From Pelagibacteraceae bacterium (GTDB lineage: Bacteria > Pseudomonadota > Alphaproteobacteria > HIMB59), in the NCBI GenBank assembly GCA_008638215.1, contig VTPN01000004.1, positions 1 to 64,000 of the forward strand: a DNA stretch of 64,000 nt, written 5' to 3'. The translations under genes were made by a program, and so were the position numbers. Positions 57,409 to 60,400 of this stretch are shown piece after piece (position 1 is the stretch's first letter; each line of letters starts with the position of its first letter). The notes beneath the pieces are model-generated. The model was not told the origin of the DNA and searched no databases. It was given only the letters and a program-made list of their open reading frames with translations.

Positions 57409-57804
57409 TTAACTAGGTTTTTTTGTAACAAGAGCTATCTTAAGAAAACCGGATGTATTCAATGCTCCTAAAACTTTCATTACCTCACCATAATTAATTG
57501 AAGTGTCCGCTCTGAGAAAGATACGAATATCATTATTAGAACCGGCAATAATCTTGACTTTAGAAATTAATTCATCAAAAGCAATTTGATCTTCACCTAA
57601 ATAAATTTGATTATTTTCATTAATAGAAATCTCTAGGGGTTCTTTTTGAGCATCAAGAGAGTTAGATTCAACTTTGGGAAGGTTGACAGGTACCCCTACG
57701 GTCAGCAGTGGGGCAGTAACCATAAAAACAATGAGCAGGACTAACATCACATCTACCATCGGAGTGACGTTAATATTAGAGACTGGAAGATTTTTTTTTC
57801 TCAT
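57409..57804 (-). CDS. tolR: Tol-Pal energy protein TolR
   Basis: This 131-residue ExbD/TolR-family protein has one membrane helix (about 13-34) containing the proton-channel Asp in INVTPMVDVMLVLLIVFMV, followed by a periplasmic domain (LPKVESNSLDAQKEPLEISIN...IRADTS-like FLRADTSINYGEVMKVLGAL). It forms the TolQ-TolR motor. Spacing to tolA and tolQ is zero, typical of the operon. Confidence 0.98.
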   Translation of the reverse strand: MRKKNLPVSNINVTPMVDVMLVLLIVFMVTAPLLTVGVPVNLPKVESNSLDAQKEPLEISINENNQIYLGEDQIAFDELISKVKIIAGSNNDIRIFLRADTSINYGEVMKVLGALNTSGFLKIALVTKKPS

Positions 57805-58503
57805 TTAGTTAACTTGACGAGAAATAATATTTATAAGGTCCTTTCCAAAGCTTTCTGCCTCAGATAGATATGTATCAATTTTTGAATTGATCATATTGTA
57901 GAATGCAGTGGAAGGGATGGCCACAAACAAACCAAGAGCTGTTACAAAAAGCGCCTCTGCTATCCCAGGTGCTACCACAGCTAAGTTAGTATTTTGAGCA
58001 ATCGCAATCGCTTGAAAGCTATTCATGATTCCCCATACCGTTCCAAAGAGTCCGACAAATGGAGCCACCGAGCCAGAGGAAGCTAGAAAAGAAAGACCCT
58101 TATTGAGTCTAGTGTCTTCCACAGCAATCGAAAGATCTAAGGATGTATATAATCTTTGTATAAAAGAAGAGTCTATTTTATTTTTTTGTAAACGAGACTT
58201 TTCATACTCTCCCATGATGTTTCTAAAAATATTAGAATAACTCTCTTGATCGAAGTCTTCAATTTGCTGATATAATTCATCCAAAGAAATTCCTGACCAA
58301 AAATGATTTTCAAACTGTTTTGAAATTTTGGTCTGCTTGTTGATAAGTAAGATTTTTTGGATAATAGTTTTCCATGATTGAATAGAAAAAATTACAAGAA
58401 GGAAAATAACAATTTTTACAACCCAATCAGATTTCAAGAACATTCCAAACATAGAAAAATCAACTGATCCTTCTAATGCCGCTAAATTTACAACTTCTTC
58501 CAT
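57805..58503 (-). CDS. tolQ: Tol-Pal energy protein TolQ
   Basis: This 232-residue ExbB/MotA-family inner-membrane protein has helix 1 near 30-48 and helices 2-3 near 140-205. The conserved segment is GSVAPFVGLFGTVWGIMNSFQAIA, followed by LAVVAPGIAEALFVTALGLFVAIPSTAFYN. It pumps protons with TolR to energise TolA. It starts four bases after the nuclease gene stop, with GAGGAT serving as Shine-Dalgarno inside that gene's end, so the two are translationally linked. Confidence 0.98.
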   Translation of the reverse strand: MEEVVNLAALEGSVDFSMFGMFLKSDWVVKIVIFLLVIFSIQSWKTIIQKILLINKQTKISKQFENHFWSGISLDELYQQIEDFDQESYSNIFRNIMGEYEKSRLQKNKIDSSFIQRLYTSLDLSIAVEDTRLNKGLSFLASSGSVAPFVGLFGTVWGIMNSFQAIAIAQNTNLAVVAPGIAEALFVTALGLFVAIPSTAFYNMINSKIDTYLSEAESFGKDLINIISRQVN

Positions 58504-58506
58504 TAT

Positions 58507-58875
58507 TTAATCCTCATTATTTTCAATTTCGATAGAATTTATTTTATTTTTCAGTTCTTTAGAAACCTCACTAAAGTCATCTGAATGTACCATTATCCAA
58601 AAACCAGGTCTATTTTTTTCACACAATGCAATCACTGGAGTTTTTTTTTCTTTATCAGCTAAAACTTTCGTTTCATCCCAAAGTTTGACAGCCGTGTGCT
58701 TTGCTCTTAATTTACATTCAATGAATAGATTCTCGTGAATAACATCTGAATGAGTAACTTTAGAGTTGATACCGCTCAAAGCATTACGGACGCCACCAAA
58801 AAACCTGGCTACTAATCGTTCCCTGTTCTTCCAAGCTTTATCAGGCACTTGAACTATCCAATAAGGAGCTATCAA
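58507..58875 (-). CDS. Probable PD-(D/E)XK nuclease, Hjc-like layout, between yebC and tolQ
   Basis: This 122-residue protein keeps the acid/lysine spacing of small PD-(D/E)XK nucleases: E19 (NRERLVARFFGG), D44 (HSDVIHENLF) and E53-C-K55 (FIECKLR), as in archaeal Hjc-type resolvases. A later stretch ends RPGFWIMVHSDDF. Gly-Gly-Arg/Ser-Gly elements (RFFGGVRNALSG) resemble the resolvase loop. In many Proteobacteria ruvC-ruvA-ruvB lies between yebC and tolQ; here only this gene is present. The start is TTG 58875 inside the yebC end, with an in-frame GTG at 58848 as an alternative. The nuclease family is likely; Holliday-junction activity is inference. Confidence 0.8.
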   Translation of the reverse strand: MIAPYWIVQVPDKAWKNRERLVARFFGGVRNALSGINSKVTHSDVIHENLFIECKLRAKHTAVKLWDETKVLADKEKKTPVIALCEKNRPGFWIMVHSDDFSEVSKELKNKINSIEIENNED

Positions 58876-59581
58876 AATCTAAGTTGGAGAAACAATTTTG
58901 AACGTCATCATTATCTTCTAAATCTTCATTTAATTTAATTAAGCGATTTAATTCATCTACTTTATCAATATTGACCGTCATGTTAGGTTTCCAAATAATT
59001 GATGCACTCTCAATTTCCATATTTCTCTCTCTCATTACCTTTTCCAATGAAGCTAAGTCTTCAAATTTGCAATATATATAAGTAACTCCATCATCAATGT
59101 TATAATCGTCTAAACCGTGGTCAAGTAGTTGCTCTAAAGTGGGATCATCTAAATTTCCTTGGATTTGAATTTCACCTACTTTGTCAAAATTAAAACTAAC
59201 ACTTCCTGTTTCTCCTAAATTTCCTCCATTTTTTGAAAAAATAGATCGAATTTCAGAAGCGGTTCTATTTTTATTATCCGTTAAAGCCTCAACTATAAAA
59301 GCTGTACCAAAAGGGCCATAACCTTCATAGCGGACTTCGGTGTAGTCAGTGGTATCAGTATTGTTTTTATTTATTGCTCGATCAACATTATCTTTTGGCA
59401 TATTCACACTACGAGCATTATTTATTGCTAATCGAAGTCGCGGGTTTGACTCAGGGTCGGTTCCCCCTATTTTTACGGCAATTTGAATTTCTTTTCCAAT
59501 TTTGGCAAATTGTTTTGCTCTTTTCTTATCTTGAGCTCCTTTGCGATATTGAATATTTTTAAACTTGGAGTGACCTGCCAT
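58841..59581 (-). CDS. yebC: YebC/PmpR-family protein (TACO1 family)
   Basis: This 246-residue cytosolic protein belongs to the YebC family, annotated as transcription regulators and more recently implicated in relieving ribosome stalls. Motifs are MAGHSKFKNIQYRKGAQDKKRAKQFAKIGKEIQIA, NPRLRLAINNARSVNMPKDNVDRAI, YEGYGPFGTAFIVEALTDNKNRTASEIRS and GGNLGETGSVSFNF. All three domains are present. Its end overlaps the nuclease gene by 35 bases. Confidence 0.96.
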   Translation of the reverse strand: MAGHSKFKNIQYRKGAQDKKRAKQFAKIGKEIQIAVKIGGTDPESNPRLRLAINNARSVNMPKDNVDRAINKNNTDTTDYTEVRYEGYGPFGTAFIVEALTDNKNRTASEIRSIFSKNGGNLGETGSVSFNFDKVGEIQIQGNLDDPTLEQLLDHGLDDYNIDDGVTYIYCKFEDLASLEKVMRERNMEIESASIIWKPNMTVNIDKVDELNRLIKLNEDLEDNDDVQNCFSNLDFDSSLLDSSSA

Positions 59582-59584
59582 AAC

Positions 59585-60400
59585 CTAAGATAGTAAATTA
59601 CGATCTAAAACACCACCTATTTGAATCGATCGTATCGTACTTTTTTGTCCCTTATTCGAGCATATAATTGCTCCAGAAATTGTCGCTTCCCCTTCGGCGG
59701 GCTCTAATCGAGGGATATTTGATTCTGATCTCATTCTTTTGATAGCATTCTCTTTTTTCATTCCAATAACAGAATTATAATCACCAGTCATTCCTATATC
59801 TGTTTGAAAGCAAGTACCTTTATCTAGAACCCTTGCATCCATAGTGGGAATATGAACATGAGTGCCATAAATAGCTGTGAATTTTCCATCATAGTTTTGA
59901 GCAATACCATTTTTTTCTGAAGTCACCTCTGCATGGACTTCTAAAAAAGAGTAGTCGATTTGATGATCATTAATAATAGACAAAAGTTTTGTATCAATCG
60001 CCTCAAAGGGATTGCTTAAAGGTAAATCGATAAAAGATTTTCCATGCACTTGGGAGACCAGTATTCTCTCTCCATTAGAATGAGTAAAAATTTTATAGCC
60101 TTGACCAGGAGAGTCTTCTGTAAAATTCAGAGGTCTTATTATATTATGATCAGGGTTATCTTGCATGTAAGTGATAATTTCTTCTTTTTTCCAAGCATGA
60201 TTACCTAAAGTAACAGCATTAGCGCCCCAACTAATGATATCTTCATAAATTTTTCCTGTGATGCCATAACCTCCAGCAGAATTTTCTCCATTGATGATTG
60301 TGAAATCAATGGAGAATTTCTTTTGGATTTTCTTTAAATTATTTTGAAGAGCATTTCTGCCTGAACGACCAACTACATCTCCAATGATTAAAAAATTCAT
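59585..60400 (-). CDS. YmdB-family metallophosphoesterase (TIGR00282)
   Basis: This 271-residue protein carries the calcineurin-like metal motifs of the YmdB family: MNFLIIGDVVGRSGR (D8), IINGENSAGGYGI (metal Asn/Glu), TLGNHAWKKEE and GTHVHIPTMD with TDIGMTGDYNSVIG. Characterised relatives hydrolyse 2',3'- or 3',5'-cyclic nucleotides; the in vivo substrate here is unknown. It overlaps the upstream cyclo-ligase gene by four bases and precedes yebC. Confidence 0.93.
   Translation of the reverse strand: MNFLIIGDVVGRSGRNALQNNLKKIQKKFSIDFTIINGENSAGGYGITGKIYEDIISWGANAVTLGNHAWKKEEIITYMQDNPDHNIIRPLNFTEDSPGQGYKIFTHSNGERILVSQVHGKSFIDLPLSNPFEAIDTKLLSIINDHQIDYSFLEVHAEVTSEKNGIAQNYDGKFTAIYGTHVHIPTMDARVLDKGTCFQTDIGMTGDYNSVIGMKKENAIKRMRSESNIPRLEPAEGEATISGAIICSNKGQKSTIRSIQIGGVLDRNLLS

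Follow-up and report, generated by a model that had tools for sequence, protein, structure and literature searches.

The window analysed here, a stretch of 64,000 nucleotides, belongs to a draft assembly of 1.23 Mb in 72 contigs (92% complete) and carries a small putative nuclease gene between yebC and tolQ. The minus-strand order in this genome is ymdB, yebC, the nuclease gene (termed Hjc-like below), tolQ, tolR, tolA and tolB. The features that define the locus are as follows.

59585..60400, minus strand: ymdB-like phosphoesterase gene, outer upstream anchor of the slot (Pfam 2e-85; synteny)
58841..59581, minus strand: yebC (TACO1/YebC), upstream anchor of the ruvCAB slot (Pfam 2.6e-50; synteny)
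58841..58848, minus strand: 8-base overlap between the end of yebC and the start of the Hjc-like gene (from the sequence and the starts of relatives)
58507..58848, minus strand: Hjc-like phage-type resolvase gene, activity inferred; 113 aa, GTG start; E10, D35 and E44-x-K46
57805..58503, minus strand: tolQ, downstream anchor of the slot (Pfam MotA_ExbB 1.4e-34; synteny)
57409..57804, minus strand: tolR, part of the tolQRAB operon downstream of the slot (homology and collinearity in relatives)

An earlier note described a 122-aa open reading frame at 58507-58875 on the minus strand, with E19, D44 and E53-x-K55, lying between yebC and tolQ and overlapping yebC by 35 bases. The frame exists, its residues stand at those positions and its location is right; its start is not. 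In every relative the homologous protein begins at the codon aligned to residue 10 of the longer frame, which is ATG, or GTG in one case. The corresponding codon in the window is GTG at 58846-58848, with GGAT 7 bases upstream. Because the relatives start at this codon, the gene is placed at 58507-58848, and a 113-aa product initiated at GTG is the most likely reading of the sequence. The 122-aa version with a TTG start at 58875 was rejected on the same ground, and the overlap with yebC shrinks to 8 bases. Translation of yebC and the Hjc-like gene is inferred to be coupled through this overlap. Downstream, 3 bases separate the stop codon from the tolQ ATG at 58503.

Alphaproteobacteria that bear ruvC and keep this locus have the order yebC-ruvC-ruvA-ruvB-ybgC-like-tolQ, and Pfam confirmed the three ruv genes at the slot in one of them (L185). 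The earlier description of the slot as the usual seat of ruvC, ruvA and ruvB therefore holds, with a ybgC-like gene added before tolQ. All carriers of the Hjc-like gene that were examined show ymdB-yebC-Hjc-like gene-tolQRAB, as far as their contigs reach. They comprise both families of the order (f1 and f2) and, as a third family, f23, represented by G120 and the related records L163 and L164 (only L164 being from MarineAlpha6_Bin4). A tree of YebC, TolQ, TolR and TolB groups the three families against six ruvC-bearing outgroups, too few to establish a sister relationship.

RuvABC is a near-universal three-gene machine that cuts crossed DNA strands after recombination. The RuvC model (TIGR00228) gave no match of any score in 100 of 100 relatives from the genus and the order. 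RuvB stayed below its cut-off in all 100 relatives searched, as did RuvA in all 60 searched for it, a set that left out f23. Weak RuvB-profile matches occur in every relative; they are short or low-scoring, far below the cut-off, and consistent with other AAA+ proteins. Weak RuvA matches were likewise rejected, being confined to model positions 100-162 (helix-hairpin-helix) inside frames of 915-926 aa. One relative (G030) is a single contig of 1.41 Mb, 99% complete, in which RuvC, RuvA and RuvB are all absent, so gaps in draft assemblies do not explain the loss. The absence of ruv genes first remarked in the window thus extends to the whole assembly and to this near-complete relative; RuvABC encoded elsewhere in the genome, which would have refuted a replacement, was not found. 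RecG, which the earlier note had proposed to look for, is present. Its match in the source assembly spans 625 positions and scores 570 bits. This is short of the curated cut-off of 659, but the match is clearly distinct from a second frame of 1007 aa that is inferred to be Mfd-like.

Of 100 relatives, 89 carry the Hjc-like gene, among them all 20 that are at least 90% complete. Its closest named carriers are HIMB59-clade alphaproteobacteria of marine origin, one of them alpha proteobacterium HIMB59 isolate MED-G104. Within-genus dN/dS, computed pairwise, ranges from 0.015 to 0.09, with dS near saturation for many pairs; by this measure the gene is under strong purifying selection. Its four catalytic residues (E10, D35, E44 and K46) are invariant across an alignment of 33 host and phage sequences. 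Distribution, dN/dS and residue invariance together identify it as a genuine gene and not a chance frame. In the class, 386 genomes are at least 85% complete: seven carry the Hjc-like gene, 361 have RuvC, and none has both. Fisher's test gives 2e-9 for this exclusion, without correction for kinship among genomes that are not phylogenetically independent. The proposal that RuvC, and perhaps RuvAB, gave way to a one-gene resolvase is supported by the absence of RuvABC, the shared slot and the retention of RecG.

The phage profile phrog_2002, annotated as "Holliday junction resolvase", matches all 33 aligned host and viral members (best 1.2e-10); the window protein scores 5.4e-8 over profile positions 16-120 of 130. 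Hjc-type motifs II (hDhhXp) and III (hhhEhK), as defined in PMC8805305, are fulfilled by S34-D35-V-I and L-F-I-E44-C-K46. The residue preceding the catalytic Asp is Ser or Ala in this family, and Ser in Thermus phage enzymes too. The full archaeal motif I, (G/P)x4E x9-11 G(F/Y), is not met: A5 replaces G/P, and Gly occurs at E+8/E+9 without (F/Y) at the motif I spacing; motif I is only partly satisfied. No Pfam or NCBIfam family exceeds its cut-off for the window protein. The archaeal Hjc family PF01870 matches 2 of the 33 members, at best with E 0.15, and its gathering cut-off is not reached. Searches of PDB sequences with the single protein and with a profile returned chance matches only and did not reach any solved Hjc.

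An AlphaFold2 model of the protein has a mean pLDDT of 85.8 and a pTM of 0.78. In Foldseek searches against the PDB, Hjc of A. fulgidus and P. furiosus makes up most of the top matches, each individually weak (E 0.056-0.24, probability mostly 0.5-0.93, TM 0.35-0.51). In a viral structure library, six matches pass 0.001, and several of the first fifty are annotated as Holliday junction resolvase. The structural comparison proposed in the earlier note thus points to resolvases, consistently but only weakly by any single PDB match. Alignments by hhalign are marginal, both to the Hjc of Thermus phage P23-45 (E 0.007 but probability 5%) and to PDDEXK_15 proteins; the effective diversity of the alignment is only 1.6. 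Among all open reading frames of P23-45 and SIRV2, profile A1 ranks the known Hjc 1/421 and 1/132, but profile A2 does not rank it first, so this ranking lends weak support only. The pattern R-x-P-L-S-G...D...E-x-K is common to this family and Thermus phage Hjc, and partly to SIRV2 Hjc. The identification as an Hjc-like PD-(D/E)XK nuclease therefore stands, and one as archaeal Hjc itself does not. As the predicted fold is Hjc-like but membership in PF01870 is not met, the label phage-type, Hjc-like PD-(D/E)XK resolvase is preferred. On motifs and model, the protein resembles Hjc and probably works like it; activity is inferred without cleavage data, and no assay of any member of this exact group was found in the literature.

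Homologues are also found in viruses. In IMG/VR, 54 contigs carry homologues, which reach ~77% identity to members of the genus. Gene context could be read only where contigs were long enough and scanned (L069, and L106 in part). There, the marine podovirus homologue lies between a small-terminase-like gene and terL, overlapping terL (L069, 5226-7715), and a T7-type head-tail connector gene is near. A junction-cutting enzyme next to packaging genes would be expected in a phage that has to debranch its DNA before packaging, as is established for the T4 and T7 endonucleases. The viral contigs (L055-L108) range from 31 to 45% GC, which suggests several hosts. Two variations were observed among viral members. 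In Bacteroides phage BS162P1 (L054:5323-6315), an Hjc-like domain, ~41% identical, is C-terminal in a protein annotated as homing endonuclease I-HmuI. In L096:1934-2218 and L098:6001-6285, E-V-K replaces E-C-K, as in Thermus phage and archaeal Hjc.

Other RuvC-less lineages of the class show comparable arrangements. In family f89, probably SAR11-like (an unconfirmed inference), single-contig genomes of 1.20-1.32 Mb have ymdB-yebC, an insert of 164 or 165 aa, and tolQRAB, in one case with a ybgC-like gene before tolQ. The insert is the RuvC-like phage resolvase phrog_1770 (E 5e-37), which the RuvC profile does not recognise. In family f44, ymdB-yebC is followed by a 168-aa insert and by two genes that we take to be tilS-like and ftsH-like from their own sequences, without a search; tol-pal is not at this locus. 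That insert matches PDDEXK_15, "Phage putative PDDEXK endonuclease" (2.7e-21), and also phrog_244, "RusA-like Holliday junction resolvase".

L216:9428-9925, minus strand: f89 phrog_1770 RuvC-like gene in the yebC-tolQ slot
L217:10405-10899, minus strand: f89 phrog_1770 RuvC-like gene in the yebC-tolQ slot
L218:5070-5564, plus strand: f89 phrog_1770 RuvC-like gene in the yebC-tolQ slot
L213:1745-2251, plus strand: f44 PDDEXK_15 / phrog_244 gene after yebC
L214:9437-9943, minus strand: f44 PDDEXK_15 / phrog_244 gene after yebC

RuvB above the cut-off is absent from the f89 and f44 genomes tested. Strong matches of the f89 type (E <1e-90) are confined to that family (4 of 386 class genomes), and strong matches of the f44 type to f44 (3 of 333). 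Four genomes with canonical RuvC also give weaker f89-type matches (1.9e-37 and below); these copies are possibly phage-borne. A pattern method found no relatives of PDDEXK_15 in viral contigs, though annotated phages have PDDEXK_15. Altogether, 14 of 25 RuvC-less class genomes have one of the three phage-type resolvases, the seven Hjc-like carriers included. Two genomes (G406 and G432) were counted as RuvC-less from their absence among RuvC matches, without a reading of the slot. Three more (G116, G176 and G285) lack a RuvC match but retain RuvB, which makes a gap in the assembly or divergence of RuvC the probable explanation. For the other eight of the 25, no substitute resolvase offers an explanation. 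In one further observation, the ~2.2 kb that separate yebC from a ybgC-like gene in G288 contain no open reading frame of at least 55 aa (L219:5144-7300), as if ruvCAB had decayed in place.

Current evidence supports, with good though not complete confidence, an in-place replacement of ruvC, ruvA and ruvB between yebC and tolQ by a phage-type, Hjc-like PD-(D/E)XK Holliday-junction resolvase in the HIMB59 clade and an additional marine family. Junction cleavage, dimer formation, the housekeeping role and transfer from phage to cell are inferred. RuvCAB could instead have been lost simply by streamlining, the gene being a domesticated phage nuclease with another job, such as debranching or restricting phage DNA or controlling superinfection, while RecG with YqgF, or nothing, handles junctions. 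The proximity of phage copies to terminase genes makes DNA packaging the probable ancestral role and would suit this reading, as would three genomes (G218, G274 and G288) in which RuvC and RuvB are absent and no substitute is visible at the slot. For a defence gene, however, mobility and a patchy distribution would be expected; this one occurs in all near-complete members searched within the order, under strong purifying selection, and never together with RuvC. It also occupies the exact ruvCAB slot, where other lineages hold different Holliday-junction resolvases. We regard such a change of job as improbable.

Even less credence is given to a different sort of PD-(D/E)XK nuclease (Mrr-like, Vsr-like or RNA-directed) with only its fold in common with Hjc. 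That fold is common to many nucleases, the Foldseek list against the PDB also includes tRNA-splicing and viral cap-snatching endonucleases, and no Pfam family passes; yet phrog_2002 matches all members, annotated Holliday junction resolvases abound in the viral structure search, the Thermus phage pattern is shared, and the locus is the yebC-tolQ slot. A further alternative concerns origin alone and leaves the replacement of RuvCAB intact: the gene may be cellular and vertically inherited in the hosts, the phages having acquired their copy from them. The AU test does not reject monophyly of the host copies (p 0.107 with three families, 0.26 with two), and the identical slot in all carriers suggests one acquisition. 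Nevertheless, in the best topology of the gene tree the three host families are dispersed among phage sequences, viruses supply the more distant relatives (L054, L101 and L102), and phrog_2002 is a phage family. A cellular origin is therefore doubtful while keeping some weight, and because host monophyly is not rejected and the best tree mixes hosts with phages, the number and direction of captures remain unsettled.

Under the replacement of RuvCAB by the Hjc-like enzyme, the protein would act as a dimer, by analogy with Hjc, and bind the four-way junctions left by RecA, whose presence was not looked for. Paired metal-dependent nicks would be made using E10, D35, E44 and K46. Branch migration, normally the job of RuvAB, may be spontaneous or performed by RecG, the likely (inferred) branch migrator in these carriers. 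Expression of the gene would be coupled to yebC and tolQ, as that of ruvC was.

Several known systems resemble this arrangement in part. Phage resolvases of phrog_2002 have the same catalytic residues and are up to 77% identical, whereas the window copy is fixed in the chromosome, in a housekeeping operon of bacteria without RuvABC. Archaeal Hjc (A. fulgidus 2wcz/2wj0, P. furiosus 1gef) provides most of the best PDB structural matches and the same catalytic logic, but TM reaches at most ~0.5, no sequence match is significant and the spacing of motif I is different. Hjc_15-6, from a Thermus phage, is an active archaeal-like phage resolvase of solved structure, and its E-SD-ExK signature corresponds to E10, S34-D35 and E44-C-K46 of the window protein (PMC8805305). 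Small size and R-x-(P/A)-L-S-G before the Asp are common to both; sequence similarity is marginal, however, and the C-terminal parts diverge. Between Glu and Lys, the Thermus phage resolvases have Val, where most members of the present family have Cys.

RecU, which also belongs to the PD-(D/E)XK superfamily, offers a cellular comparison. In Firmicutes and Mollicutes, this non-orthologous resolvase replaces RuvC while RuvAB is kept, and its gene rarely colocalises with ruvAB (PMC1193525). The Hjc-like carriers differ in that RuvAB is also missing and the new gene sits in the old slot. E. coli RusA lies in a prophage, alongside intact RuvABC. Prophage resolvases have been noted as a possible substitute (PMC1193525), and RusA is alike in being a phage-type resolvase that could in principle work for the host cell. 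The Hjc-like gene is different, being fixed in an operon where RuvABC is absent. In a survey of 117 species, RuvAB and RuvC/RecU were nearly universal, and RuvAB was absent from only 2 RecA-bearing genomes (PMC1193525). No paper on ruv loss or resolvase replacement in HIMB59 or SAR11 was found, in a search that most subscription journals lay outside.

A whole order of ocean bacteria thus lacks RuvC, RuvA and RuvB, and separate reduced lineages lack RuvC and RuvB; each of these groups has a phage-type resolvase in the same position after yebC. The balance tips slightly towards a broader reading, in which swaps recur at the yebC-tolQ slot among reduced Alphaproteobacteria, RuvCAB having been replaced there at least three times by different one-gene phage-type enzymes (phrog_2002, phrog_1770 and PDDEXK_15), and in which free-living, presumably recombining marine bacteria can do without RuvAB-driven resolution. 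Phage enzymes would then have been captured repeatedly into a core repair locus. The resulting prediction is that one promiscuous small nuclease together with RecG suffices for housekeeping recombination, and these bacteria offer a direct means of testing what purpose RuvAB serves.
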